From assembly GCF_001180025.1 (NCBI RefSeq), contig NZ_CVSK01000030.1, forward strand, positions 124,001 to 188,000: DNA of 64,000 bases, read 5' to 3'. The notes below the pieces were generated by a model. That model was not told the DNA's origin. It was given only the letters and a program-made list of their open reading frames with translations, and made no database searches. Both the position numbers and the translations under genes were made by a program. Positions 3,658 through 15,521 of this stretch are shown in pieces. Within the stretch, counting starts at the first letter, position 1, and the number at the start of each line of letters is the position of its first letter. This DNA is from Candidatus Pelagibacter communis (GTDB lineage: Bacteria; Pseudomonadota; Alphaproteobacteria; Pelagibacterales; Pelagibacteraceae).

Positions 3658-3733
3658 GCCCTTGTAGCTCAGCTGGTAGAGCAATTGATTTGTAATCAAT
3701 AGGTCCGCGGTTCGAATCCGTGCGGGGGCACCA
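3658..3733 (+). tRNA. trnT: tRNA-Thr (anticodon TGT), integration site of the first island
   Basis: A 76-base cloverleaf with encoded CCA. The acceptor GCCCTTG pairs with CGGGGGC (two G-U pairs). The anticodon stem TTGAT/ATCAA encloses the loop TTGTAAT region with TGT. The anticodon arm plus variable loop (3686-3705) is repeated exactly at 13023-13042 in the same orientation, the signature of site-specific integration into a tRNA gene. Confidence 0.97.
3686..3705 (+). repeat. attL-like direct repeat inside tRNA-Thr
   Basis: Twenty bases (TGATTTGTAATCAATAGGTC) covering the anticodon loop, 3' anticodon stem and variable loop of tRNA-Thr. They recur identically at 13023-13042. The intact copy keeps the tRNA functional, while the other copy is a decayed fragment. 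Confidence 0.8.
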
Positions 3734-3831
3734 CTAAAATCTCATTTATTTTCAATAAAATTAAAATTTTTAAAAACATTTTTAAAAATCAAAATCATTT
3801 AATAAGAACATATAGGGGAAGGAAGTAGAAC

Positions 3832-3857
3832 TAAGTGTAGTCTTTTTGTAGTCTTTA
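3832..3857 (+). repeat. end motif of island 1, left copy (tandem 11-mer)
   Basis: A 26-base sequence built on two adjacent 11-base units, TGTAGTCTTTT and TGTAGTCTTTA. It is identical to 12921-12946 and in the same orientation. It is flanked by the inverted repeat GGAAGTA (3821-3827) / TACTTCC (3865-3871). The position about 100 bases from the tRNA end fits a recombinase arm-type binding site, though that function is inferred. Confidence 0.7.
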
Positions 3858-3894
3858 ATAATTTTACTTCCAGAAATACAATCTCAAAAAGTTT

Positions 3895-4083
3895 TTATTT
3901 AAATGAATCAATAATATAAAACATTACTAATCTAATTATTATTGGAACAATAATTCCAGCAATGATCCCAAACCACAATAAGCCGCTGCCATTAAAACCA
4001 CCAATTGTTATTAAGATACCAATTGCAATCCAAATCCAAAAAAATACATTAACAATTGCTTTTATACCTTTTCCAATATTCAT
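3895..4083 (-). CDS. small two-helix membrane protein, unknown function
   Basis: A 62-residue hydrophobic protein with two predicted transmembrane segments (about residues 8-28 and 33-57) and a short charged N-terminus (MNIGKGIK). I do not recognise a family. It is the last gene of a minus-strand row in the island and lies just inside the left end motif. The gap to the next gene upstream is about 30 bases, so it may be co-transcribed with the DUF2130 pair. Confidence 0.6.
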   Translation of the reverse strand: MNIGKGIKAIVNVFFWIWIAIGILITIGGFNGSGLLWFGIIAGIIVPIIIRLVMFYIIDSFK

Positions 4084-4112
4084 AATAATTATTTAAAGTT
4101 ATTATATATGTT

Positions 4113-4667
4113 TTAAACATCGAGTTCACCAGGTTTAGTAACTACAGGATAACCATCAAAAATTTTTCTTAGTTTTGATTTATATTCTTCCATATCTATA
4201 CCTTTATAGTGCTTCATAAATAAGCTTGCTTCTAACTCGCTATAAACTTGTAATCTTCTAATAAAATATTCAAAAAAATTTATCTCACGCTCCCAATACA
4301 TTTCTTTAGCTCTATTCAAATCATCATATAAATTAGAATTCATTTTTAATGCTGGTGGAAACCATTCATTTGCAAAATAGTCATCCTCATTAAATAATTC
4401 GGTAAACTTCCAAATAATTTTTCTATTACCAAATCCAAAAAACTTAACAACATCTTGCATTATACCGCCCCTGTCCTCATGTGCAAAAGGTACTGTTGGA
4501 TGTGCTCCAGTACGATCTGTAAGATCTAAAAATATACCCTCAAAATAAAATAGCTTTCTTCTAAGTATTTCTGGATCTTCTTTTGTAATATTTTTTTCAA
4601 GCGCATTAATCAGTTCATTTGCAAATTCGTAATCTTGATTAACTGCAAATTTATTAACATCAAACAT
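4113..4667 (-). CDS. hypothetical protein paired with the DUF2130 protein
   Basis: A soluble, acidic 184-residue protein with no signal peptide or membrane segment. It is rich in aromatic residues (ALEKNITKEDPEILRRKLFYFEGIFLDL at the start, WEREINFFEYFIRRLQVYSELE near the C-terminus). I recognise no family. The frame is open 13 codons further upstream, but ATG at 4665-4667 is preferred because it gives the usual short overlap with the end of the DUF2130 gene (shared ATGTTTGA). The tight coupling suggests that the two proteins act together. Confidence 0.65.
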   Translation of the reverse strand: MFDVNKFAVNQDYEFANELINALEKNITKEDPEILRRKLFYFEGIFLDLTDRTGAHPTVPFAHEDRGGIMQDVVKFFGFGNRKIIWKFTELFNEDDYFANEWFPPALKMNSNLYDDLNRAKEMYWEREINFFEYFIRRLQVYSELEASLFMKHYKGIDMEEYKSKLRKIFDGYPVVTKPGELDV

Positions 4668-6051
4668 TTTTATTCTCTTCGATTTGAATAATACAATCTG
4701 GCCCAACTTTAAGTGTGAAAGATCTTATCATATCTCTAAAGTCTTCTTCCATATCAAGCATAGCTCTTTCCTTGTTAGCAATACTGTTTTCAAAAAACTT
4801 TTTTTCTTTTCCCATAAGATCATTCATTTTAATCATTGATTGATACAAATTTCTTACAGGTAATTGAAATGATGGACCCATTATATGATCCCAAAGTCTT
4901 TTCATCATTTTTGGTGCATCAAAATCCTTCTTAGATTTATGTTCATTTATCAAGTTAGTTTTAATAAAACTTACTAACATGTGAATTATTGGATAATTCA
5001 TTGGAATGATAATAATTCTTTTACCATGTCTTTCAACATAGCCATCATGCTGTTTATTATAGTCTTTTGGCATAGCTGTAGTAATTAAAACACCATAATT
5101 GATATTTTTATCTTTCATATCACTTAATAGTTTGCTTACCCATTCTTCTTTAAAAGTTTTGTGATCTTTGCTTTCAAAGTAAATCTGTGCAAGTTTTTCT
5201 TGATCTTTATTATTAATTGTAAGTATACAATCTGCACCTTTTGCTCCCTTTTTAACTTCTTCTACAGTATCATGTGGAAATTTACTTCTAAGGTAATCCT
5301 CAATCAGTTCTTCTTGAACTTCACCTTGAACTTCCATCGATTTTTGTTTTAGCTGTTTAGACATTTCATCAATTTTTACTTGAGTACGTCTTTTTTCTAT
5401 TTCTCTTTCTTTATCTTTTTTAGCCATTATATCTTTAAGTTTTTGAACATCGTTTTCAGATTTTTCTTTTATTTTTTGCTCAATAACTTTTTCTTTTTGT
5501 TTAAGATCTGCAATTAACTTAGCTTCAATTTGTTTTTTACTCTTCTCAGCTTGTGCAACTTTAGTTTGAAGATCCATAAGCTCTTTTTTTTGCTTATTTT
5601 CTCTAATTAAAGCTTTCTCTTTTAACTGTTTTTCGATTTCTTTTTCCTTAAGCTTAAAACTGGCAATTAACTTAAACTCTGCTTCTTTAGAGCTTTTCTC
5701 CATTGCTTTTTCTTTAGCCTTAAGTTTGTCTTCAATTGCTTTTTCTTTTTGTTTTAAGGTTGCTGTCATCTTTAATTCAGTATCCTTTCTACTCTTTTCG
5801 GCCTCTAAAATTTTAGACTGCAATGCCTGAACTTTAGCTTTACTTTCATTTTGTACTTTTAATGAAAGTTCTTTCTCTAAATTTTTTTCTTTTAGTTTGA
5901 AATCAAGATTAAATTTTTCTTTTAAAAGTTTTTCCTTAACCTTAATTTCTTCTTGGTACTCTTTTTCTTTGCTCTTTAAGTGATTTTGTAATGCCTGATC
6001 TGCAGAAAAAGTTTCGTTACAGCTAGGACATGTTATTATTAATTGACTCAT
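4660..6051 (-). CDS. DUF2130 family protein: zinc-finger-like N-terminus, long coiled coil, PD-(D/E)XK-like C-terminal domain
   Basis: A 463-residue protein. Residues 1-25 hold a half zinc ribbon (C8-x2-C11 and H24). About 25-245 is a continuous charged coiled coil with three copies of a roughly 31-residue unit (near 83-113, 118-147 and 168-198, each around KLIADLKQKEK). About 245-370 is the DUF2130 domain with D274 and E293-x-K295 (YFESKDH), the arrangement of a PD-(D/E)XK nuclease. A good ribosome-binding site (AAAGGAG) precedes the ATG. DUF2130 proteins are poorly characterised, and a DNA-targeting or defence role is inferred from the fold and the island setting only. Confidence 0.78.
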   Translation of the reverse strand: MSQLIITCPSCNETFSADQALQNHLKSKEKEYQEEIKVKEKLLKEKFNLDFKLKEKNLEKELSLKVQNESKAKVQALQSKILEAEKSRKDTELKMTATLKQKEKAIEDKLKAKEKAMEKSSKEAEFKLIASFKLKEKEIEKQLKEKALIRENKQKKELMDLQTKVAQAEKSKKQIEAKLIADLKQKEKVIEQKIKEKSENDVQKLKDIMAKKDKEREIEKRRTQVKIDEMSKQLKQKSMEVQGEVQEELIEDYLRSKFPHDTVEEVKKGAKGADCILTINNKDQEKLAQIYFESKDHKTFKEEWVSKLLSDMKDKNINYGVLITTAMPKDYNKQHDGYVERHGKRIIIIPMNYPIIHMLVSFIKTNLINEHKSKKDFDAPKMMKRLWDHIMGPSFQLPVRNLYQSMIKMNDLMGKEKKFFENSIANKERAMLDMEEDFRDMIRSFTLKVGPDCIIQIEENKNV

Positions 6052-6078
6052 ATTTATTTTACTCCTTTATTTAATTTA

Positions 6079-6279
6079 TTAGTTAATTGTTAGATCTTCT
6101 TCGGCACTCCACTCATTTGACTTATGCTGAATTTCTTTGATTTTACTTTTAGCTAAATATTCAATAACCTTACTAAATGTTAATTCTGCATTAATAATGT
6201 TACCTTTTCTTAGCCATTCTAAAGTTTCATAAGTATCCCTAGGTATGCTTACTGATTTATATTTATTTGGATCTGCCAT
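6079..6279 (-). CDS. small ribbon-helix-helix-like DNA-binding protein
   Basis: A 66-residue protein whose core YKSVSIPRDTYETLEWL, followed by LTFSKVIEYLAKSKI, fits the beta-alpha-alpha pattern of ribbon-helix-helix (CopG/Arc) proteins: an amphipathic strand, a helix starting at the D-T-Y-E region and a second helix starting at T-F-S. It probably acts as a dimeric repressor. A strong GAGGAG ribosome-binding site precedes the ATG. It lies 27 bases upstream of the DUF2130 gene and may regulate that group. No toxin partner is obvious. The fold call is by pattern only. Confidence 0.6.
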   Translation of the reverse strand: MADPNKYKSVSIPRDTYETLEWLRKGNIINAELTFSKVIEYLAKSKIKEIQHKSNEWSAEEDLTIN

Positions 6280-6299
6280 TTTATCTCCTCTGTTTAATT

Positions 6300-6326
6300 A
6301 AAATCCCCTGTTCTTTTACAGGGGAT
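6300..6326 (-). terminator. intrinsic terminator after the 78-residue membrane protein gene
   Basis: A perfect 9-base-pair stem ATCCCCTGT / ACAGGGGAT with a 6-base loop lies 12 bases downstream of the preceding minus-strand stop and runs into TTTTAATT. The G+C-rich stem stands out in this AT-rich sequence. It separates this gene from the downstream RHH/DUF2130 genes. Confidence 0.7.
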
Positions 6327-6338
6327 GTTGTTGACGAT

Positions 6339-6575
6339 TTATTCACTTTTATCGCCTATTGTTAAAAATATTCCTCCAATTAAACCTGCTGCAATTGGAG
6401 TGAACTGTGACATTGGTCCCAAGAATGCGGTTAAATTTGTCCCCATTCTAGACGCAGCATAATCTACAACTGCAAATCCTATTAAGAGTATTCCTAAATA
6501 GCCAAATACTCCGCTAGGCAAATCAATCATCATTTCATCATTGCTATTTTTTTTCTCTATTTTTGTTTTTTTCAT
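6339..6575 (-). CDS. small two-helix membrane protein, unknown function
   Basis: A 78-residue protein with a highly charged N-terminus (MKKTKIEKKNSNDE) and two hydrophobic segments (about residues 24-42 and 52-74, GLIGGIFLTIG). An in-frame ATG 10 codons upstream exists, but the ATG used here is preceded at the right distance by an AGAGGAG ribosome-binding site. No family is recognised. It has its own downstream terminator and an unusually structured upstream region, so it seems to be an independent single-gene unit. Confidence 0.6.
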   Translation of the reverse strand: MKKTKIEKKNSNDEMMIDLPSGVFGYLGILLIGFAVVDYAASRMGTNLTAFLGPMSQFTPIAAGLIGGIFLTIGDKSE

Positions 6576-6605
6576 TTTCTCCTCTTTGTTAGTGTTTATG
6601 ATCAA

Positions 6606-6796
6606 GAGGAATTCACAAATTGCAGAAAGGAGGTTAAGAACTATAATTTAACCAAAGATCAATTTGCTTACTTCCTCTTAATCTTTTGTGTGTTCAATAA
6701 AATCAAACACACCCTATTTATAGTGATTTAAAAATGGTTTACCCGTAGGTTAACTTTTGACTTTGCCTACGGATGAATTTCTAATAATCTAAATTT
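6606..6796. promoter_or_regulatory. divergent intergenic region with three inverted repeats
   Basis: Between a minus-strand and a plus-strand gene lie three inverted repeats: GGTTAA/TTAACC around 6633-6654, GTGTGTT/AACACAC around 6689-6713 (7 pairs, 11-base spacer) and CCGTAGG/CCTACGG around 6741-6770 (7 pairs, 16-base spacer). No good open frame is present. They could be operators for the neighbouring regulator genes or hairpins in leader RNAs. The function is not decided by sequence. Confidence 0.45.
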
Positions 6797-7303
6797 ATGA
6801 GTAAAAAAAAAGGCTATCCAAGAAAACCATATTCATTTGAAAGAGTTTTAAAAGATTTAGCAGACGATATTGGTTACGATAATATTGAAACTGTTATAGA
6901 AAAAAAAAGAAAAGCTATTGAACATATTTCAAACCCTAATTTCAAAGATAGGCAGCTTCATATACAAGATGGGTTGGAATTAGATATTCATTGCAAAAGA
7001 ATTGGTAAAGGAACTCCATTTCTTACTGCATATGAAACTTTACTTAGAAAAGAAATTGCCAATAGAAAAGATCACGACCCTAGTGATGAAATAATCAATA
7101 ATTTACTTAGATTAGGTGAGTCTATAGGTGATGTAATGGAAGAGACTAGAAAGGCTCTTGATGATGATAAAGTTGATGAAAATGAAAAGGAACAAATTTC
7201 AATAGAAGTAATTGAATTAGAAAAAAAAATTGCTGAACTTAAGCTAAAATTAAATTTAGGTGAAAAAACAAACTACAAAATTCAAAATAAAAGAGAACCT
7301 TAA
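6797..7303 (+). CDS. hypothetical soluble protein, possibly phage CII-like regulator
   Basis: A 168-residue charged protein without signal or membrane segments. A stretch near residue 58 (DGLELDIHCKRIGKGTPFLTAYETLLRKE) is followed by a C-terminal helix pair (GDVMEETRKALDDDKVDENEKEQISIEVIELEKKIAELKLKL). The order resembles the phage regulatory protein CII family, where an ALxDGxIxxxE segment precedes a terminal coiled coil. The resemblance is weak and I give it as a possibility. It heads a plus-strand trio with two membrane proteins, with only 3 bases to the next start. Confidence 0.45.
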   Translation: MSKKKGYPRKPYSFERVLKDLADDIGYDNIETVIEKKRKAIEHISNPNFKDRQLHIQDGLELDIHCKRIGKGTPFLTAYETLLRKEIANRKDHDPSDEIINNLLRLGESIGDVMEETRKALDDDKVDENEKEQISIEVIELEKKIAELKLKLNLGEKTNYKIQNKREP

Positions 7304-7306
7304 TCA

Positions 7307-8155
7307 ATGCGTTATAGGTTTTTATTAAATTTTCTAAAAATTTCACTAGTTACAAAAGGAATAAATAAAATAAATATTTTTTTAAATCTCGCAATTTTTT
7401 TAAGCATCTTCGCTATCTCAAGTACTCTCATATCTATTTATTATGAATCAAAAATTACTGATATCGAAAAAAAAATCGCAAAAAATGGTACGCTATTAGA
7501 CGTTCTGTCAGCAAGCACAATTTCAATTCCAACTAAAGTTTTAGGATTAGAGAATATATCAAATGATATTAAAAAAAATAATGACATCATAAATTATTTT
7601 CTTTATTCAAAAGTAGGACAATTATTTGATGAATATGAATTGTATTATCGTCCAGTAATTCATCTTAGTAATTATTTATCTAATGGTTTTACGACTATTA
7701 AAAATTTTGAGGATTTTATTAATATTAAAGATGATGCAATGCTTAAAAATGTTGATAAGAAAGTATTTGAAGATTTAAAGCAAAACTCAATAAACCAAGA
7801 AGAATTTTTAAAAATTAGAAATAAAATTGATAATGATCATAAAGAATTAAAACTAGACAGAGGTATTAAGGTAATTAAACCTGAAAGTTTAAAAAGTTAT
7901 CAAAATTATTATGACACATTTATTATATATATAAATGATCAGCTTCATCATTATTCATTAATATCTGGAACGTTACAAAAAATTTATAATAATATAAAAA
8001 ACGATAATCTTAAAAATTTTGAAGAAATATCGAAGAATTCAAAAGAGTCTAAAAAATTCATTATATTTGCTTTTTTCTTTCAATTAATAATTTTTATTAT
8101 TGTACAGGCAATGGAAATAATAACTACCAGAAGGGAAATACAAAATATCAAATGA
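7307..8155 (+). CDS. hypothetical membrane protein with N- and C-terminal helices and a large extracytoplasmic helical domain
   Basis: A 282-residue protein with transmembrane segments at about residues 22-46 (INIFLNLAIFLSIFAISST) and 248-268 (FIIFAFFFQLIIFIIVQAM). The roughly 200 residues between them are mostly helical, lysine/asparagine-rich and probably periplasmic. The architecture recalls sensory-domain proteins that lack an output domain. It overlaps the next gene by 4 bases (ATGA), and that protein has the same plan. No family is recognised. Confidence 0.6.
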   Translation: MRYRFLLNFLKISLVTKGINKINIFLNLAIFLSIFAISSTLISIYYESKITDIEKKIAKNGTLLDVLSASTISIPTKVLGLENISNDIKKNNDIINYFLYSKVGQLFDEYELYYRPVIHLSNYLSNGFTTIKNFEDFINIKDDAMLKNVDKKVFEDLKQNSINQEEFLKIRNKIDNDHKELKLDRGIKVIKPESLKSYQNYYDTFIIYINDQLHHYSLISGTLQKIYNNIKNDNLKNFEEISKNSKESKKFIIFAFFFQLIIFIIVQAMEIITTRREIQNIK

Positions 8156-9015
8156 CATTAAATGTGAGAATTTTAGGTTTAATTATTCTAGTAGGTTTAT
8201 TTACTGTATCTTCTTTTCTTTTCGATCAGATGGTTATTTATTCTGAAGATAAAATCAGAGAAAAAAACTTCTTATATAAAAGATCATTTAATAATTATTT
8301 AGCTAGCAAAAATGTAATGTTTAACACAAGAGATTTAATGACAAGGATTCAGGTTAAAAAAAATTTTTTTGAAGATAGACAATCCTTTTTGCAGGATGCT
8401 GTATCAGTATTATTTAATGATAATCTGATTAAATCAACATTTGATGAAAATGTTGGAAAAAATTATTTTAAAAATCTTAAAACAATTTTTACATCAAGAT
8501 ATCAAACACTAGGATATGATATTTTAAAAGAATGCGATCTAGCATACAGTTTTTTTAAAGGAATACAGGTAAGAAAATTTGATCTTAATATCCATGAGGA
8601 TGAAAAGACAATAAAAGCAATTAAAGGATTAAATAAAATAAATTTAGAAAACTCATTAAAAACACATGATCATTTTACCAAAAAACTGGATATAGAAAGA
8701 AAAAAAATTCTATCTGTAGACTATGGTATTTCTAATATTGATGAATTCTATCTCATTAGAAAAATGTACACTGATTTATTAGATTATTATTTTTTACACT
8801 ATGGTTATTTAGAAAAAATAAATGATGCTCATAGGGTAACTTTTGATTTTTATTTTAGAGAATCTACACGTTTTTTAGATGAAAAAAGTAAGCACGAAAG
8901 ACAAAAAAATTATTTTATTTTATTTGGTGTTTTATCTCAAATTTTAAGTCTTTTTTTCTTAATCTTTCTTTTTAAAACTTTGATGTTTTTGGCAAACAAG
9001 AAACCTAATCCTTAG
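8152..9015 (+). CDS. hypothetical membrane protein, partner and probable paralogue of the preceding gene
   Basis: A 287-residue protein with an N-terminal transmembrane helix (about residues 7-25, ILGLIILVGLFTVSSFLF), a long helical periplasmic part and a C-terminal helix (about 256-280, NYFILFGVLSQILSLFFLIF). The C-terminal helix closely matches that of the 75-residue protein encoded at 11933-12160 (QILSLF followed by L/F repeats). Translational overlap with the preceding gene suggests a two-component membrane complex. The function is unknown. Confidence 0.6.
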   Translation: MTLNVRILGLIILVGLFTVSSFLFDQMVIYSEDKIREKNFLYKRSFNNYLASKNVMFNTRDLMTRIQVKKNFFEDRQSFLQDAVSVLFNDNLIKSTFDENVGKNYFKNLKTIFTSRYQTLGYDILKECDLAYSFFKGIQVRKFDLNIHEDEKTIKAIKGLNKINLENSLKTHDHFTKKLDIERKKILSVDYGISNIDEFYLIRKMYTDLLDYYFLHYGYLEKINDAHRVTFDFYFRESTRFLDEKSKHERQKNYFILFGVLSQILSLFFLIFLFKTLMFLANKKPNP

Positions 9016-9019
9016 AAAA

Positions 9020-10234
9020 TTATCCAATAAACTTACTACCTAAAAATAAACCTTTAGCAGCTTCTAAATTATAAAAATAAGTTAATAAAATTATTAATAT
9101 AAAAAAATAACTTATTGGGCCAACAAACTGAGCATACCTATCAACTACACTAAGATCCTTACCTGATTTAAGTTTTCTAAGGAATGAATAAACACAAAGA
9201 AGAGTTGCAGCCCCGGTATAAAAATACGACAAGAGTATAAAACAATCCATAAATGTTAAATATGGAAGTTTAGGCAAATCCTCATCAATAATGAAGTTGT
9301 AAGCAATCAAAGATAATAAACAAACAATAGTAACATTAACCTTAGCTTCAAGCTGGGATCCTCTTACCCAAAATACTGACCACGAGATAGCCAATATGAA
9401 AATTATAGGTAATATAATCTTATAAATATAATATGAAGTTAATCTCTCAATATTAAAATCTAAATAAAAACCGGTATAAGGGCTTCCATCATTATCTACA
9501 TATGAGTATGTTTCATAAGAAGGGTTATTTATTTTCCAACCATCTACTGTAATTGGACTACCGTCTTTTTCCCATACACCGGTAGCAGCATATTCTGACA
9601 TGTAAGGTTCATTTGGGATCAATTCCACCAAGAAAGATGGATATTCAGACCATAGTTCTATACTTAATTCCTGATGATCAAATGGAAATTTTTTAAAATC
9701 AAAATTATTTGAATGAAATATTGCTGTATCTTTTAATCGCTTATCAACTGTTCCATCAGAAAAAATATCTATCCAATCTGCCATAAAATTTTCAACTGGT
9801 GGCTTATCGACTCTATTATAAAATTCTATAGCTGGATCGAATAATTTAAAATTAGAAAATTCTTCTGAAGGATTAAAAGTACATAAATAAAATGGTTTTT
9901 TACCAACTTCTGTAGCTACACCTAAATTTTTTAAAAGTTCTTTTAACCTAGGATCATTCCAAGTTAACCACAAATTTACTTGCGCCTCAAATGTATTTTG
10001 GTCAGCCGATATTTGAAATATCCTATCTACATAAATATCAACTTTAACATTTATTGGATCTTCTGACACATAATTGGCATGAGGAAATTTTAAATTGTCA
10101 TATAAATTTTTACAAAAGTCAGGTTTTAAATCTTTTGCTGGATATTTATAAAAATTAATACCAAAAGATTTAGTAATAAAAATTAAAATCAATACCAATG
10201 AATAAAGAAAAGTTTTAAAGATATAATTTTTCAT
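9020..10234 (-). CDS. pentameric ligand-gated ion channel subunit (prokaryotic Cys-loop-type receptor)
   Basis: A 404-residue protein. A signal peptide (about 1-25) is followed by a beta-rich ligand-binding domain (about 26-264) with the WxDP motif (W92-N-D-P) and the F-P-F-D motif of the Cys-loop (183-186; the bracketing cysteines are absent, as in other bacterial members). Four transmembrane helices follow: M1 about 268-290 with the conserved proline, M2 about 297-316, M3 about 326-350, M4 about 368-389. The M2-M3 link LPKLPYLTF matches the bacterial GLIC pattern, and E296 at the inner mouth of M2 suggests cation selectivity. It sits 2 bases behind a Tat-exported amine oxidase gene. The ligand is unknown. 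Confidence 0.88.
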   Translation of the reverse strand: MKNYIFKTFLYSLVLILIFITKSFGINFYKYPAKDLKPDFCKNLYDNLKFPHANYVSEDPINVKVDIYVDRIFQISADQNTFEAQVNLWLTWNDPRLKELLKNLGVATEVGKKPFYLCTFNPSEEFSNFKLFDPAIEFYNRVDKPPVENFMADWIDIFSDGTVDKRLKDTAIFHSNNFDFKKFPFDHQELSIELWSEYPSFLVELIPNEPYMSEYAATGVWEKDGSPITVDGWKINNPSYETYSYVDNDGSPYTGFYLDFNIERLTSYYIYKIILPIIFILAISWSVFWVRGSQLEAKVNVTIVCLLSLIAYNFIIDEDLPKLPYLTFMDCFILLSYFYTGAATLLCVYSFLRKLKSGKDLSVVDRYAQFVGPISYFFILIILLTYFYNLEAAKGLFLGSKFIG

Positions 10235-10236
10235 AT

Positions 10237-11562
10237 TTATATAAGATTTTTTGTGACAATTTTTCCACTATCGTAAGCTCCTGCAACAGTACCCCACTCT
10301 TTTGCTGTTGCCTCACCTGCGAAATATATTCTGTCTCCCACTGAGCTTCTTAGGATTTCTCTATACTTAAATGCACCTGGCTCAGCAGATGCCCATGCTC
10401 CCATAAATAGTGGGTTTGATGACCAATCAACAGCATGAGATTTAATTATATCTTTATCAATCTTATTACCAAAAATTTTCTTTAATTCACTTATTCCAAA
10501 ATCAATAGATGCTTGCTCACCTGATTTTAACAACTCTTTTCCAAAGTCTCCTCCTGGATCGCACAAACATAATTTAGAATCAGATGGATTTATTGTGACA
10601 CCAAAACCCTCAGGTGATTTAGCATTTTGACTAACAACTCTATAATATAAATATGAATCTTTAGTCTTTTTCTTAAATAATTTCTTAAATTTAAAAGTAA
10701 GTCGATTGTAATGACCCATAGAAATTTTAGAAAATGACTCTTGTTTTTCAGTAGGTAAATTAGGGGTAAATTTAATTTGATCAGAAGCTAGTACTCCAGT
10801 TGAAACGGTTAGAATACATTTGTTAGATTTAATTTCTCCTTTATCGGTTAAAACCTTTACTCCACTACCACTCCAATCAATTTTATTAACTTTTGTATTT
10901 AATTGAACTGGAATGTTTTTAAACATATCAGCTACCAACGAACCAAAACCTTCTTTGCAATGCCATGGTGCAGACTCAGGAATTTCATAATCATAATTAA
11001 AATCTTTACATGAGTAGTTTGTAAAATCTTTACCCATCTCCCATGCTCCAATTATCATGTGCATAGTATCAAACCACCTATGATCTTGATAAGGAACTAC
11101 TTCTGAAGGGGAAATATCTTTCCTAGTTTTTGCAATTCCGGCCTCTATACCATCAAAGACTTTCCATATTTCATCATCATTTGAAATTTTTTTTTTGCCA
11201 CTATAGAGATCATACATTTCCTCAGATCTTTCTTTATATAAATTGAAATTAGAATTTTTTACACCATATAACTTAAAGGGATTTGTATCTCCATTATCTA
11301 ACCATAATGCACCAAGATCATATGGTTCACCAAAAATTTGATTATCAGTAAAAGCCCTACCTCCAATTCTGTTCGATGCCTCTAAACAAATAACTTTTTT
11401 TCCTGAATTGATTAATTCTTCCGTAGCTGCAAGTCCTGCTGCCCCTGCTCCGATTACTACAACATCATAGTCTTGATCAGCATTGACTTTAATTATACTG
11501 GGAAAAGTTATAGCAGTTAATCCCAACAAAGATGATTTAATAAATTTTCTTCTTGATTTCAT
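10237..11562 (-). CDS. Tat-exported FAD-dependent amine oxidase
   Basis: A 441-residue flavoprotein. The N-terminus has a twin-arginine signal (SRRKFIKSS followed by a hydrophobic stretch), so it should be exported folded with its FAD. The dinucleotide-binding motif is G38-x-G40-x2-G43, followed by LEASNRIGGRA. The C-terminal DRIYFAGEAT...GTVAGAYDSG segment is diagnostic of the flavin monoamine/polyamine oxidase family. It oxidises an amine to aldehyde or imine with O2, giving H2O2, and the exact substrate cannot be read. It overlaps the DUF805 gene by 4 bases and directly precedes the ion-channel gene. Confidence 0.85.
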   Translation of the reverse strand: MKSRRKFIKSSLLGLTAITFPSIIKVNADQDYDVVVIGAGAAGLAATEELINSGKKVICLEASNRIGGRAFTDNQIFGEPYDLGALWLDNGDTNPFKLYGVKNSNFNLYKERSEEMYDLYSGKKKISNDDEIWKVFDGIEAGIAKTRKDISPSEVVPYQDHRWFDTMHMIIGAWEMGKDFTNYSCKDFNYDYEIPESAPWHCKEGFGSLVADMFKNIPVQLNTKVNKIDWSGSGVKVLTDKGEIKSNKCILTVSTGVLASDQIKFTPNLPTEKQESFSKISMGHYNRLTFKFKKLFKKKTKDSYLYYRVVSQNAKSPEGFGVTINPSDSKLCLCDPGGDFGKELLKSGEQASIDFGISELKKIFGNKIDKDIIKSHAVDWSSNPLFMGAWASAEPGAFKYREILRSSVGDRIYFAGEATAKEWGTVAGAYDSGKIVTKNLI

Positions 11563-11933
11563 TTTTTCTTAATTCTTTTTTTTGTAATTTTTTTCAATGG
11601 GTCAGGACCAAATCTATTTTTTCCTTTAGTTCCTACGGGGATTAAAAGAAACAATAGTACAAGCCCACCTATAAAGGGAATAAAACTTATTAATAAAAAG
11701 AAACCAGATTTATTAGTATCATGTAATCTTCTAACACCAGCAGAAAGTGCTGGTATCAGTGTAAACAAAGTTATTCCTAGGAAAAAAAAGGAAATTTCAT
11801 TATCTAATACTTCTGAAATAAAATATGAAGGTGAAACAATTAATTGAAACCACCAATATTCAGATCTACTAGCCCTACCTTCAAAAACAAAATATTTTTT
11901 TAAACAAGTTGATAAAGATTCTCCAAATGTCAT
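11559..11933 (-). CDS. DUF805 family membrane protein
   Basis: A 124-residue protein with the family pattern: an N-terminal amphipathic segment with FEGRASRSEYWWFQL, hydrophobic helices, the PALSAGVRRLHDTNKSGFFLL motif between helices and the ending LLFLLIPVGTKGKNRFGPDP. The role of DUF805 proteins is not established. It is translationally coupled on both sides (TAATG with the upstream gene, ATGA with the amine oxidase), so it belongs to the channel operon. Confidence 0.88.
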   Translation of the reverse strand: MTFGESLSTCLKKYFVFEGRASRSEYWWFQLIVSPSYFISEVLDNEISFFFLGITLFTLIPALSAGVRRLHDTNKSGFFLLISFIPFIGGLVLLFLLIPVGTKGKNRFGPDPLKKITKKRIKKK

Positions 11934-12160
11934 TATTTTTTCATATTAATGATAAGATATCTAAAAAGAATTAAAAGAGAAAATAAAGATAATATTTGAG
12001 CTATAATACTTAATAATATTAATTGATTTTTAAGGCTTGAAATCGATTTAATAATCCCAAGTTTTTCAATTGATACTTCTTCTTTAGAACTTACCAATTT
12101 AGTTATGTCAGATTTAATTTCATCAAGAGTTATAAAATTTGAATGTAAATTTTCTAACAT
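11933..12160 (-). CDS. short single-pass membrane protein, C-terminal relative of the 8152-9015 product
   Basis: A 75-residue protein with an acidic soluble N-terminus (about 1-45) and one C-terminal transmembrane helix (about 47-70, ILLSIIAQILSLFSLLILF). This helix and its preceding NQLI resemble the C-terminal end NYFILFGVLSQILSLFFLIF of the 287-residue island protein. It could be a truncated paralogue or a small functional subunit. It is coupled to DUF805 and follows the PrsW-like gene by 17 bases. Confidence 0.55.
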   Translation of the reverse strand: MLENLHSNFITLDEIKSDITKLVSSKEEVSIEKLGIIKSISSLKNQLILLSIIAQILSLFSLLILFRYLIINMKK

Positions 12161-12177
12161 TAATATTTTAAATCTGT

Positions 12178-12882
12178 TTAAATCTTTTTTATTTCTTTTT
12201 CATTTCTTTTTAATTTTTGCTTTTGCTTAAGTTCATTATGCAAATAAAAAGAAAAAAGAACCAAAATACCAATGATAGTCATTGGATATGGCCATACTAG
12301 AAAATTATAAAAACCATGGAATAAATATGGTAATACTAATGATAAAATTAAAAACTTTTTATTACCTGAAAAGGCATACATTCCAAAATAATAACCCATT
12401 ACAGCACCATTAAGACCGTGCATTGGAATAGCAGAATAAGATCTTCCTAATGCTACTAAATATGATAATTCAGCAAAATCATAACCTTCATCTTTTGCTA
12501 TTTGCTCTGCCCATTCATATACGTATGTATAATTTTCATAAGTTGCAAAACCTAAAGAAACAACTACTCCATAAACTAAACCATCCATAGGTTCATTAAA
12601 TTCGTTTCTTTTTAAAACTATTAGATAAAGAATTGAAAATTTTAATAATTCCTCAGCCCAAGCGGGACCTAAAAAACTACTTGTTAAGTTATCAGAGTAT
12701 TTTGATCCATCATAAAAGAAATCATGACTTAAACCATTTAAAATTCCTGCAGGTAAACAAATTAAAAAACCAAGAAAAAAAATTAAAATTACTGTTCCTT
12801 TAGGTTCTCTAAATTTATCTGCAAGCACAAAATATAATAAAATTATTATTGGAGGAACTAATGTAATTAACAGAGTTAACAT
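12178..12882 (-). CDS. PrsW-family intramembrane metalloprotease
   Basis: A 234-residue polytopic membrane protein (about 7 hydrophobic segments). The PrsW family motifs are present in order: the AEELLK motif (E-E-x2-K), GFATYEN, a conserved histidine in RSYSAIPMHGLNGAVMG and LFHGFYNF near the end. PrsW cleaves the membrane anti-sigma factor RsiW in Bacillus, and most relatives have unknown targets. It heads the five-gene minus-strand operon that ends with the ion channel and is the first gene inside the right end of the island. Confidence 0.82.
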   Translation of the reverse strand: MLTLLITLVPPIIILLYFVLADKFREPKGTVILIFFLGFLICLPAGILNGLSHDFFYDGSKYSDNLTSSFLGPAWAEELLKFSILYLIVLKRNEFNEPMDGLVYGVVVSLGFATYENYTYVYEWAEQIAKDEGYDFAELSYLVALGRSYSAIPMHGLNGAVMGYYFGMYAFSGNKKFLILSLVLPYLFHGFYNFLVWPYPMTIIGILVLFSFYLHNELKQKQKLKRNEKEIKKI

Positions 12883-12920
12883 TTTAAAAGGCTATCAAAA
12901 GATTAAAATAATGTCTAACG

Positions 12921-12946
12921 TAAGTGTAGTCTTTTTGTAGTCTTTA
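12921..12946 (+). repeat. end motif of island 1, right copy (tandem 11-mer)
   Basis: A 26-base perfect copy of 3832-3857, in the same orientation, 77 bases before the tRNA-Thr fragment. Again two tandem 11-base units (TGTAGTCTTTT, TGTAGTCTTTA). The flanking bases differ, so the motif itself has been conserved or recently shared. It is read as a recombinase-binding site by analogy with arm-type sites. Confidence 0.7.
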
Positions 12947-13022
12947 TAGATTATGCATGTAGACGGGAGTCTAAAAGTTAAGTAGTATCAACCTTAATGA
13001 AAAGAAAATTATTTACGCTTAC

Positions 13023-13047
13023 TGATTTGTAATCAATAGGTCTGTGG
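13023..13047 (+). repeat. tRNA-Thr fragment, attR-like end of island 1
   Basis: The first 20 bases are identical to tRNA-Thr 3686-3705. The next five (TGTGG) match CGCGG with two transitions, after which similarity fades. This is the place where the original tRNA 3' half would remain after integration, now free to decay. Confidence 0.78.
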
Positions 13048-13056
13048 ATATAGATT

Positions 13057-13194
13057 TTACCAGGCTGTTAATTTCCAGCACTCATTAGCGTCTTCAATAC
13101 GAACATAACAACCAAGAAAAGACATCATTTTGAATGCACAAAAACCTCCAACTAAAATAATGACTATGAGCATTATTGGATTAATTTTTTTCAT
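13057..13194 (-). CDS. 45-residue small membrane protein
   Basis: A short frame MKKINPIMLIVIILVGGFCAF followed by KMMSFLGCYVRIEDANECWKLTAW. It has one N-terminal hydrophobic helix (about residues 6-22) and a cysteine-containing tail (C19, C29, C39), which looks like a genuine small exported or inner-membrane protein. It fills the gap between the tRNA-Thr fragment and nadK, ending 10 bases from the fragment. The function is unknown, and being short it could be fortuitous. Confidence 0.45.
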   Translation of the reverse strand: MKKINPIMLIVIILVGGFCAFKMMSFLGCYVRIEDANECWKLTAW

Positions 13195-13197
13195 TCA

Positions 13198-13968
13198 CTA
13201 ACTAGTCTCTCTTCTTATTTGTTCTATTTTAATTTTTTTTTGAAGGCTTCTATTCTTATCATAAAGAAGATTAAACTTTATTTTATTATTAGTTTTCACT
13301 GTAATTGATTTAGCATTTCTTACTTCTAAATTATCTGCAACAGCACTGATAGGTCTCTTCGTTGGGTTTAAGTTAGTTATGACTATTTTAGTTTTGTCAT
13401 TAACTATTTTGCCCTTCCATCTTCTTGGTCTAAATGCACTTATTGGAGATATTGATAATTTTTTTGAATGAAGACTTAAAATAGGTCCATGCACAGAAAG
13501 ATTGTAAGCCGTACTACCAGCTGGTGTTGACACTAATACCCCGTCAGAAACTAATTTTTTAATTATTTGTTTTGAACCTTGCTTAATTGATAATGAGGCG
13601 GCCTGCCTACTTTGCCTAAGCACAGATACTTCATTTATTGCTATAGATCTCTTAGTTTGATTATTTTTATTTTTAACAATCATTTCTAGTGGACAAATTG
13701 AAACTAAATTTGCTTTTGATAGATTTTTTATAATATCTTTTGAAGAAAATTTATTCATAAGAAAACCATAATTTCCAGAGTTAATCCCATAAAAATGTTT
13801 ATTAGAGTTTTTATTTTTTTTTAATGTTTGAAGCATAAAACCATCACCACCAATAACTATGATAAGATTTTCTTTTTTAAACTGATTAGTTTTTATTTTG
13901 TTTAATAATAGATTTTTAAGGCTTAATGATTTCTTATTTTTATCTGAAATAATTTGAAGTTTACTCAT
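13198..13968 (-). CDS. nadK: NAD kinase
   Basis: A 256-residue ATP-NAD kinase. The GGDG motif (VIGGDGFML, about residue 40) and GINSGNYGFL form the nucleotide-binding loop. The NEVSVLR motif and the glycine-rich DGVLVSTPAGSTAYNLSVHGPIL strand-loop of the C-terminal domain are present. The enzyme makes NADP from NAD in the cytoplasm. It is slightly shorter than enterobacterial NadK but similar to alphaproteobacterial ones. It is the first core gene to the right of the island and lies just before tRNA-Leu. Confidence 0.95.
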   Translation of the reverse strand: MSKLQIISDKNKKSLSLKNLLLNKIKTNQFKKENLIIVIGGDGFMLQTLKKNKNSNKHFYGINSGNYGFLMNKFSSKDIIKNLSKANLVSICPLEMIVKNKNNQTKRSIAINEVSVLRQSRQAASLSIKQGSKQIIKKLVSDGVLVSTPAGSTAYNLSVHGPILSLHSKKLSISPISAFRPRRWKGKIVNDKTKIVITNLNPTKRPISAVADNLEVRNAKSITVKTNNKIKFNLLYDKNRSLQKKIKIEQIRRETS

Positions 13969-13972
13969 TTAG

Positions 13973-14058
13973 TGGTGCCCTCGGCCAGACTCGAACTGGC
14001 ACTCCGCAAGCGGCAAGGATTTTAAGTCCTTTGTGTCTACCAATTTCACCACGAGGGC
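13973..14058 (-). tRNA. trnL: tRNA-Leu (anticodon TAA), integration site of the second cassette
   Basis: An 86-base class II tRNA with encoded CCA. It has acceptor GCCCTCG/CGAGGGC, anticodon stem AAGGA/TCCTT, loop CTTAAAA (TAA) and a long variable arm. Its 5' half and 5' flank are duplicated 1370 bases away. This copy is complete and should be the functional one. Confidence 0.97.
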
Positions 14059-14126
14059 ATTAATGAATTTCATGAGTGTTTATGCTAATATTTATAATTG
14101 AACAAGTCTAATAAGTAAAATTTTTT
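14020..14126. repeat. direct repeat A: tRNA-Leu 5' half plus upstream flank
   Basis: About 107 bases running from the anticodon loop of tRNA-Leu through its 5' end and about 68 bases of upstream flank. It aligns without gaps to 15390-15496 with three substitutions. The flank should contain the tRNA promoter, so the intact tRNA next to the cassette keeps its own promoter. Confidence 0.85.
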
Positions 14127-14140
14127 TATTTTATCTCTCT

Positions 14141-14162
14141 AGGTACTAGTTTAGTACTAGTT
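14141..14162 (+). repeat. end motif of the tRNA-Leu cassette, left copy
   Basis: Twenty-two bases containing two 11-base-spaced units, GTACTAGTTTA and GTACTAGTT. They recur identically and in the same orientation at 15244-15265. The immediate flanks differ. The 11-base period equals about one helical turn, as in island 1, but the unit sequence is different. Confidence 0.7.
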
Positions 14163-14175
14163 GTCCTATAAAATC

Positions 14176-15186
14176 CTATTCTTTTTTTGAAAATATAAAA
14201 ACAGTTGAGCTCTCTAAATTTTCAATTTTTAATTTTCCTGATTTTACTTTTATTTCAATATTATTTGCCTCTAAAAAATCTCTTACTTGACTAGATTTAA
14301 TACCATAATTAGTATTTTCACTTTCTTGACCAAAAGCTTGTTTAGTAAAATCTTTGCTCAATTTCATAGTAGCAACACCAACCAAATTACCACTTAATTT
14401 ATCAACTATTGGTCCTCCGCTATTTCCTGGATTGATCGTAGCATCAATTTGCAACATGGAAGTATTATTTTGTATTCCTTTTAAAGAATTGATTATTCCT
14501 GATGTAATTTTAAGATCATCACTTACAAATTTACCATAGGGAAACCCAGCTACTAATACACTTTGTGCTTTTTGAGGAGATTTATTTGAGAATTTTATAA
14601 AATCTTTATTTTTAACTTTTGCTTTAAGTAGTGCCAAATCTAATAACTCATCATAAGCAATTAGATTTGTATCAACCTCCTCATGATTAAATAGAATTTT
14701 TGCTTTATTATTTGAAGATTTAACTACATGATAATTAGTTACTAAATGACCCTTACTATCTACAAAAAATGCTGTACCGACAGAGTCTTCTGTAGGTCCT
14801 CCCTCATTTCCAATGGTCTTTATATTTTTTCCCATATGTTTAATTTCAACTGATTTAAGTTCTTGATCCGTTAAATATCTTAAACAAATATTGATAGCTT
14901 CTTTCATTTCATTGACAGATTTAAGAATCTTTTTGTCTTTAGAATTTATTTTTAATAAATCGTCTATCATTTCACTTTGTTGTTCCGCATGAGCTATAAG
15001 TATAGGTTTTACAACCTTATCAACATAAGCCCTTCTTGGAGATTCTCGATTATTTCTTTCTTGTTCTCTAATTTTACCAACAATAAAATTCAAAGTTACA
15101 AACTCAACATTATCACTTGAATTATCTGAATGCTTTGATTTCATTGACTCTCGATAGTCCTGATAAATTTTTTTAAAGATGAGCAT
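14176..15186 (-). CDS. cytosolic trypsin-like serine protease (HtrA-type catalytic domain, no PDZ, no signal)
   Basis: A 336-residue protein. Residues 1-125 are soluble and mostly helical, with no signal peptide or transmembrane segment. Residues about 130-310 form an S1C trypsin-like domain with the catalytic triad H153 (TNYHVV), D183 (LLDLAL) and S256 (NPGNSGGPI). No PDZ domain follows, and a short tail of about 30 residues ends the protein. Typical DegP/DegS proteases have export signals and PDZ domains, so this one acts differently, in the cytoplasm. It is the only gene of the tRNA-Leu cassette. Stress or defence roles are possible but not shown by sequence. Confidence 0.85.
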   Translation of the reverse strand: MLIFKKIYQDYRESMKSKHSDNSSDNVEFVTLNFIVGKIREQERNNRESPRRAYVDKVVKPILIAHAEQQSEMIDDLLKINSKDKKILKSVNEMKEAINICLRYLTDQELKSVEIKHMGKNIKTIGNEGGPTEDSVGTAFFVDSKGHLVTNYHVVKSSNNKAKILFNHEEVDTNLIAYDELLDLALLKAKVKNKDFIKFSNKSPQKAQSVLVAGFPYGKFVSDDLKITSGIINSLKGIQNNTSMLQIDATINPGNSGGPIVDKLSGNLVGVATMKLSKDFTKQAFGQESENTNYGIKSSQVRDFLEANNIEIKVKSGKLKIENLESSTVFIFSKKE

Positions 15187-15243
15187 TATAAAATTCTATT
15201 TTTTTGTTTTTTAAGTTTAAAAGCCATAAATTTTTATCCCTCA

Positions 15244-15265
15244 AGGTACTAGTTTAGTACTAGTT
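15244..15265 (+). repeat. end motif of the tRNA-Leu cassette, right copy
   Basis: An identical 22-base copy of 14141-14162 in the same orientation, about 125 bases from the tRNA-Leu remnant and about 58 bases upstream of the protease start codon. It could also lie within or next to the protease promoter. Confidence 0.7.
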
Positions 15266-15381
15266 TGACAAAATTAATTATTAAGAATTTTAAATAAAAT
15301 ATTATTTATTTTTAAAAAACTTATAGGATTTAATAGGATTTAGACTGCTCTGGACTACCATGGACTGACTCACTTGTGAAT

Positions 15382-15428
15382 CCCTCGGCTTTTAAGTCCT
15401 TTGTGTCTACCAATTTCACCACGAGGGC
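15382..15428 (-). pseudogene. tRNA-Leu remnant (5' half, possibly internally deleted)
   Basis: The 5' half of tRNA-Leu, from the first acceptor base to the anticodon loop, is intact here but then jumps to GCCGAGGG, which equals the 3' acceptor strand of the real tRNA. The 3' anticodon stem, variable arm and T arm are missing. It is either a truncated attachment site or an internally deleted tRNA gene. It cannot encode a working tRNA. Confidence 0.7.
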
Positions 15429-15496
15429 ATTAATGAATTTCATGAGTATTTATGCTAATATTTATAATTGAACAAGAGTAATAAGTAAAATTTTTT
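15390..15496. repeat. direct repeat B: tRNA-Leu 5' half plus upstream flank
   Basis: The second copy of the 107-base repeat starting at 14020 (offset 1370 bases), with three substitutions. Beyond it the sequence diverges and the core methyltransferase gene follows. Confidence 0.85.
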
Positions 15497-15521
15497 AATT
15501 TATCTTTCCTTGACAAGTCTA

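Follow-up and report, generated by a model that had tools for sequence, protein, structure and literature searches.

Integrase-free cassettes with matched, putative arm-site pairs at two tRNA genes of SAR11 bacteria, probably mobilised in trans

We analysed a window of 64,000 nucleotides from Candidatus Pelagibacter communis, a member of the Pelagibacterales (SAR11; contig NZ_CVSK01000030.1 of RefSeq assembly GCF_001180025.1, positions 124,001 to 188,000). Although streamlined, SAR11 genomes vary in their accessory genes. In this window two cargo-carrying elements lie ~0.98 kb apart, one at a tRNA-Thr gene (the Thr element, 9.3 kb) and one at a tRNA-Leu gene (the Leu element, 1.4 kb, 14020 to 15390). 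An earlier note on this DNA had described two tRNA cassettes with a shared end design, a doubled 11-base motif and no recombinase, and this description was confirmed at the following coordinates.

3658..3733, + strand: tRNA-Thr(TGT), the target gene (ARAGORN)
3686-3704, + strand: tRNA-Thr core TGATTTGTAATCAATAGGT (anticodon arm), within the target gene
3836..3856, + strand: left putative arm-site pair of the Thr element, TGTAGTCTTTT-TGTAGTCTTT, 11-bp period, 131 nt from the core
3895..12882, strand not assigned: Thr cargo, with a DUF2130 protein, a phage CII/CP76-like regulator, two uncharacterised open reading frames (ORFs), a pentameric ligand-gated channel-like protein, an amine oxidase, DUF805, a PrsW-like protein and small ORFs; recombinase not found
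12925..12945, + strand: right putative arm-site pair of the Thr element, identical to the left one, 77 nt from the displaced core
13023..13041, + strand: displaced tRNA-Thr core, exact 19-bp copy of TGATTTGTAATCAATAGGT, at the outer edge of the Thr element
13973..14058, - strand: tRNA-Leu(TAA), the target gene, core at 14020-14039 (ARAGORN)
14017..14131, - strand: inner copy of a 115-bp repeat, made of the tRNA-Leu 5' half and 73 bp upstream
14143..14162, + strand: left putative arm-site pair of the Leu element, GTACTAGTTTA-GTACTAGTT, 103 nt from the core
14176..15186, - strand: trypsin-like peptidase (PF13365), sole large cargo gene of the Leu element (Pfam)
15246..15265, + strand: right putative arm-site pair of the Leu element, identical to the left one, 124 nt from the displaced core
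15387..15501, - strand: displaced tRNA-Leu 5' half and upstream region at the outer edge, 96% identical to the inner copy

The Thr element extends between the anticodon core at 3686 and the exact core copy at 13023. The partial tRNA repeat that the earlier note placed at the outer edge is present in both elements, and its extent can now be given more precisely: at tRNA-Thr the duplication comprises the anticodon arm and the 3' side of the tRNA, at tRNA-Leu the 5' half of the tRNA plus its upstream region. Inside both ends lies a tandem motif, TGTAGTCTTTTTGTAGTCTTT at 3836-3856 and 12925-12945 in the Thr element and GTACTAGTTTAGTACTAGTT, with an 11-bp period, at 14143-14162 and 15246-15265 in the Leu element; each motif matches exactly between its two ends and stands on the same strand. 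With up to three mismatches allowed, the Thr motif occurs at only two places in the window, the two ends, and the Leu motif at its two ends and one site with three mismatches (0.01 expected from shuffles for each motif). No recombinase family was matched by Pfam in the 10 largest cargo ORFs of both elements, and there were no transfer genes among the Pfam matches of these ORFs, no search aimed at them having been made. The window's genome (60% complete) has a sole PF00589 match, a frame far from the elements that we provisionally took for a Xer recombinase.

The attachment site attP of phage lambda consists of a core with arm-type integrase sites, and lambda carries its own integrase. The anatomy of the cassettes is that of a lambda-like attP, with the core in the tRNA anticodon arm and flanking arm-site pairs about one helical turn apart. 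A tRNA core flanked on either side by repeated arm sites at constant distances is the layout of a tyrosine-integrase attP, and the tandem motifs, called arms below, are most probably integrase arm-type sites. The att-like repeats at both edges of these tRNA-borne elements are also those of a cis-mobilizable type of island.

The same design was found elsewhere in the Pelagibacterales, both by motif and by displaced core; its absence there would have refuted the earlier note on the note's own terms. Among 297 Pelagibacterales genomes, the loose Thr motif TGTAGTC-N4-TGTAGTC occurred in seven and the loose Leu motif GTACTAGT-N3-GTACTAGT in four, the window's own genome included each time. These matches were same-strand pairs 1.1-9.1 kb apart, apart from single matches in genomes G240 and G289, and a reversed-pattern control gave 0 matches in the 297 genomes. 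The displaced-core search used the tRNA core pattern with one mismatch allowed and made no use of the motif. It found displaced tRNA-Thr cores in 80/297 genomes (66/244 in the window's family) and displaced tRNA-Leu cores in 116/297 (up to 83/244 in the window's family). In 33 of the Leu-core genomes, which belong to another family, the copies share one and the same 3' context and resemble intact tRNA variants; the count of up to 83 likewise includes at least G032, whose matches give the same impression.

From 62 loci we cut out 98 elements between successive cores, sometimes in tandem twos or threes. The 70 Thr elements have a median length of 1.7 kb (53 below 2.5 kb), and the 28 Leu elements one of 1.9 kb (19 below 2.5 kb). 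The stretches came from 63 of the 66 Thr-copy genomes (all save G113, G186 and G242) and a few others, with Thr elements at 58 of the loci and Leu elements at 23; genomes with Leu copies alone were mostly not sampled, so the 28 Leu elements are a subset. A 246-bp tandem duplication (L240), L160 (within L266) and copy pairs more than 15 kb apart were left out of the counts and L286 was added, while the 10-kb element of L229 is bounded by a second tRNA piece that looks intact. Because PF00589 alone misses the divergent Leu-type integrase of genome G110, an iterated integrase profile was applied to every ORF of 100 aa or more in the loci. It found an integrase in 2/98 elements, that of L153 and that of G110 (in L235, fetched whole as L286).

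Every element end was searched for an 11-bp tandem. Arms lie ~130 and ~80 nt from the core in one class of Thr elements (geometry A), ~85-105 and ~60 nt in another (geometry B), and ~102 and ~127 nt in the Leu elements. The arm letters vary between elements and match within an element, while the surrounding scaffold is conserved; the Leu left arm takes ~15 different 7-mers, some of which are one unit read in another register. When own ends were compared with swapped ends, 0/10,000 permutations reached the observed sum of matches for all 70 Thr elements, and likewise for all 28 Leu elements. By class (Thr A, n = 12; Thr B, n = 58; Leu, n = 28) the result was 0/20,000 permutations each, with classes and windows chosen after the whole-set test; class A had been picked from arms seen in that test, so its own test is not independent. 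A protein that reads both ends is the simplest reason for the two ends of one element to agree.

Integrases accompany the same layout at tRNA-Thr. Loci L153 and L154 encode a 451-aa protein in which Pfam finds the domains Arm-DNA-bind_3 (PF13356) and Phage_integrase, and L153 also encodes a primase/helicase-like protein with a 67% identical homologue in L154. PF13356 occurs in only 4/297 genomes, two of them the genomes with TGTAGTC beside the integrase. The genome collection holds four integrases of the 451-aa type (L289-L292), where L289 is the L154 element, L291 the L153 element, and the integrases of L290 and L292 are 78% and 73% identical (the Pfam scan covered L153 and L154). TGTAGTC-N4-TGTAGTC stands between tRNA-Thr and the integrase in 4/4, and the arm allele TGTAGTCGATTTGTAGTC is common to L289, L290 and the integrase-free cassette L158. 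On the other side of tRNA-Thr in L292, at 8042-9499, there is a second integrase-like ORF (by eye); this contig was binned as Flavobacteriales and resembles SAR11 satellite DNA.

A third integrase family, of 326-328 aa, goes with geometry B at tRNA-Thr. The viral contig L468 encodes a 328-aa integrase, an AAA/primase-like protein and a terminase small subunit, and its tRNA-Thr attP is flanked on either side by tandem copies of the unit TGCGGAC in geometry B, with spacers that differ at 2/4 letters. The integrase-free cassette L284 has this same unit. In G036 (L500) an integrase 76% identical to that of L468 has TGCGACCATAGTGCGACC beside it, a lone tandem that may be due to chance. Across 136 viral stretches with a Thr-type tandem, 21 have an integrase ORF, and the tandem lies within 1 kb of it in 18/21 (6.1 expected); these 21 stretches were selected by motif and include several near-duplicates. 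The loose Thr motif occurs in at least 120 stretches of viral contigs, none among the matches listed having the window's TTTT spacer.

At tRNA-Leu the integrases form a family of 515-549 aa that differs from the Arm-DNA-bind_3 family. PF13356 is matched in L153 and L154; no arm-domain match was found in the Leu-type integrases of L316, L361 and L286 or in the 328-aa integrase of L468. The two recombinase specificities that the earlier note had supposed thus have counterparts in these two families, with the 326-328-aa family as a third. Genome G110 carries a 10.2-kb Leu element that encodes a primase-like protein and a 531-aa integrase (phrog_1) and whose arms are a poorer fit (score 20.5, at 88 and 131 nt). 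In viral stretches the exact Leu core occurs in 60 and the exact Thr core in 106; among the matches listed for AT-rich viral contigs, 21 contigs have both a tRNA-Leu piece and an integrase. L316, L352, L357, L361 and L368 combine an integrase with a tRNA-Leu attP that has its arms at distances of 103-104 and 127-129 nt to the core (103/124 in the window), and L316, L352 and L362 end in direct repeats of 99-123 bp, as circular or terminally redundant genomes do. The scaffold of the viral Leu satellites aligns partly with that of the window, including three AGTCY (by eye).

In the window these three AGTCY lie at 15340-15389 with ~10-bp spacing, adjoining the Leu core on the inner side of the displaced repeat, likewise beside the core in satellite L316 (by eye); they are possibly excision-factor sites. 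Fifteen of the listed viral Leu contigs (range L313-L372; e.g. L318, L322, L333) have a tRNA-Leu piece near an integrase without a perfect 11-bp tandem, and may be phages with other integrases, perhaps pelagiphages that use the same tRNA.

At a further tRNA gene, tRNA-Val, the integrase-bearing locus L301 carries matching tandems at its two ends, 92% alike over 26 bp. Serine recombinases (PF00239) were found in one of 67 cassette-bearing genomes, G072, on contig C3, the Thr copy of that genome being on C2. This sole match, a resolvase-family gene in L502 (4111-6377), adjoins tRNA-Leu(caa) together with a 425-aa ORF.

We also searched the phage database INPHARED. BLAST of the window's att regions gave matches in 321 and 1604 records, of which the 20 listed for each aligned over the tRNA portion (no more than 45% of the query) and stopped short of the arms. 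In tblastn the 451-, 531- and 545-aa integrases had no match in INPHARED, and the 328-aa integrase matched 324 records, all below 60% identity. Short peptide patterns run against the viral contigs found no relatives of the 451- and 531-aa integrases, and the 328-aa query matched itself alone.

Genome G220, whose flank on the tRNA-Thr side is 95% identical to that of the window, carries, between tRNA-Thr and the large element that it has in common with the window, an additional 816-bp cassette whose arms follow geometry B; to judge from this comparison, the cassette is a recent insertion. A large part of the window's Thr cargo recurs in the tRNA-Leu element of G245 (L255), with 73-84% DNA identity in the main blocks and Leu-type ends, so cargo has crossed between these site systems. 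The integrase-free cassettes L157 and L158 have a Mrr/ResIII helicase with a homologue in viral satellite L368 (61-62% over 967-989 aa), which also encodes a neighbour gene 75% identical to that of L158. Among the families listed in a scan of 92 cargo proteins are type IIG and type I restriction-modification, Mrr, SinI and candidate defence families, with one to four members each; McrBC is in L161, and other cargo proteins are of other or unknown kind. Cargo ORFs of at least 90 aa in the 98 elements mostly point toward the tRNA (160/198 Thr, 67/76 Leu).

A leader like MKKLLGIVVLGLLLSGNAYA is common to 28 cassette ORFs in 26/98 elements (L226-L285), with mature parts that differ. A stricter pattern of this leader was found in 26 ORFs of 25 elements, as against two outside them in the rest of 1.24 Mb, both just past a displaced core; another leader ORF, in L499 (3641-4087), lies outside the elements, 0.3 kb from an integrase. 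A literature search for the leader text found no paper containing it. Within the window's Thr element, the pentameric ligand-gated ion channel-like gene (Neur_chan_LBD, 9020-10234) has relatives in L232, L255 and L156, and the CII/CP76-like phage regulator (6797-7303) has homologues, 29-30% identical, in the viral satellites L368 and L468.

The anatomy, the recurrence, the matched-arm statistics, the integrase elements of the same layout, the shared cargo and the presence or absence of cassettes between close relatives are established, and past mobility is well supported. We consider it likely that the window's elements are satellite-derived, non-autonomous integrative cassettes mobilised in trans, and the doubt that is left concerns mostly whether cassettes remain active. 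Each cassette would carry a complete lambda-like attP, with a tRNA half as its core and 11-bp-spaced arm pairs on either side. A tyrosine integrase supplied in trans would bind arms and core; it would come from a satellite or phage with the same tRNA target, whether already resident in the cell or newly arriving. The excised circle would then be integrated into the anticodon region of the tRNA gene, where the cassette would replace the 3' half of the gene at tRNA-Thr and the 5' half plus upstream region at tRNA-Leu, and re-excision would be possible. The two motif sequences would mirror two integrase families, PF13356 at tRNA-Thr and the 515-549-aa family at tRNA-Leu, and helper phages may carry cassettes from cell to cell. 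For ICEMlSymR7A, an attP of 283 bp with five arm sites suffices for integration when the integrase is present (PMC11963761), so a cassette with a full attP and no integrase of its own would be expected to integrate, given a suitable integrase.

Several results weigh against this model. A Leu-type integrase was full-length in one (G110) and fragmentary in one (G036) of the 67 cassette-bearing genomes and absent in 65, so a resident helper is usually lacking. The arm score was below 20 in 24/70 Thr and 6/28 Leu elements, and 13% of swapped Thr pairs and 22% of swapped Leu pairs scored at least 20, so clear arms are not present in every element; in Thr class B the own end was the best match in only 20/58. 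Among the Thr integrase elements, L291 alone of the four shows both arm pairs. A search of viral contigs for the window's Thr arms gave 22 stretches and revealed no SAR11-like integrase next to them; 16 of the stretches were new, 15 of these with GC 0.47-0.57, and the remaining one, L481 (GC 0.32), was left out. Among the 21 listed viral Leu contigs, a perfect 11-bp tandem stood on at least one side in only six and on both in two (L357, L361), and the outer arm pair of L316, L352 and L368 is spaced 12 bp instead of 11. The earlier note's proposal to look for integrases with matching att motifs yielded matching layouts and failed for the exact letters of the window's Leu arms: no integrase-bearing element had exact GTACTAGT arms, none of 11 viral stretches had the SAR11 spacers, and the satellites have the arm letters CTAGGG, CTAGGAT, GTTGCCC and GTTACCC, so none of them is an exact counterpart to the Leu cassette of the window. 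A tandem lay close to the integrase in six of 14 further SAR11 integrase stretches, with ~0.8 chance tandems expected per stretch; lone tandems being at about chance level, only the two-ended match of L301 counts.

One alternative is that the cassettes are dead remnants of satellites, their integrase lost by deletion and their matched arms left over. Several elements have no recognisable arms and the window's displaced tRNA-Thr piece is degraded outside its core. We nevertheless find this unlikely, since old decay would blur arms that match over ~15 Leu left-arm 7-mers in a conserved scaffold; moreover, 72/98 elements are shorter than 2.5 kb and presence or absence differs between genomes whose flank is 95% identical. 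Homologous recombination through shared tRNA pieces or flanking core genes might instead have moved the cassettes, with no integrase involved. Such exchange probably does occur, because interior cargo is shuffled between the window and G220 and window cargo sits in the tRNA-Leu element of G245. It leaves unexplained, however, the tandem 11-bp motifs, their fixed distances and matched letters, and the same layout beside satellite integrases, and as an account of the cassettes we judge it very improbable.

Least probable of all, in our view, is that the motifs are promoter or regulator sites of neighbouring cargo genes, the outcome that would have counted against the earlier note. With most cargo ORFs pointing toward the tRNA, the outer arm does often lie upstream of a gene; the inner arm in the window, however, is at the 3' end of the same genes. 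Motif pairs also recur beside integrase genes with different cargo, and the distance from motif to tRNA core is fixed at both ends while the cargo varies, which makes a promoter role unlikely.

Integrase-free cassettes of this kind can be set beside several known elements. In Dehalococcoides, ssrA islands stand in tandem, bounded by pieces of one RNA gene; 15 of them have no integration module, and the integrase-free ones are suggested to be cis-mobilizable (CIMEs), with a functional att kept and mobilisation together with neighbours (PMC3146451). The cassettes resemble these islands in lacking an integrase, in their place at an RNA gene and in their att-like edges. Unlike here, the sister islands in Dehalococcoides carry a serine recombinase, and matched arm pairs are not mentioned in the available text of that paper (PMC3146451); the SAR11 cassettes have putative arm sites of tyrosine-integrase type, very small size and viral-type satellites as candidate helpers. 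Tycheposons of Prochlorococcus and Methylophilaceae are described as tRNA-bordered, cargo-carrying elements of 4-200 kb with a tyrosine recombinase (PMC10872708), and are named as satellites in a further source (PMC11389934). The SAR11 cassettes, in contrast, are mostly 0.7-2.5 kb with no recombinase, and a tyrosine recombinase is not encoded by the window's elements.

The integrase-bearing partners are similar to the phage satellites PICI, PICMI and VEIME in having an integrase, a primase/helicase and, in one, a terminase small subunit; genes of this kind are present in L153, L286, L316 and L468, and no capsid gene was noticed in the proteins scanned, which were only some of those encoded. 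Integrase, primase/helicase and terminase genes are absent from the Pfam-scanned ORFs of the window's elements, which thus lack the integrase, replication or packaging-interference genes of a phage satellite. The attP of ICEMlSymR7A, as far as it is described in the available text, is like that of the cassettes in its core and repeated arm sites, although the ICE carries its own integrase. Additive flexible genomic islands have repeated tRNA ends, for which the available descriptions give no arm motifs. Integron gene cassettes use attC hairpins and the integron integrase; in the SAR11 cassettes, tRNA halves and their tandem arms make up the att sites.

The earlier note had also put the system forward as a candidate for an undescribed one. 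We found no description of matched-arm SAR11 cassettes in titles and abstract openings of the open literature, subscription papers not being covered, and in that respect the claim stands; RNA-gene islands without an integrase have been described from other bacteria, and to that extent it does not. Marine tycheposons and satellites were likewise already known.

Two SAR11 tRNA genes are docking points for short cassettes, some with restriction-modification genes, and the matching integrase is usually absent from the same genome. The paired arm letters are a sequence tag that could link a cassette to the integrase that moves it, which makes the helper integrase predictable and testable. The Mrr/ResIII helicase common to a viral satellite contig and two integrase-free cassettes suggests a route for defence genes between satellites and chromosomes. 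More tentatively, and with our own doubts still outweighing our confidence, these may be miniature cassettes present throughout SAR11 populations at two tRNA genes, with arm pairs as exchangeable address tags that diversifying satellite or phage integrases read. Cargo would move between address types, and a large subset would encode secreted proteins with a constant leader and a varying mature part. If this is true, phage satellites would power integron-like gene exchange in one of the ocean's most abundant bacteria.

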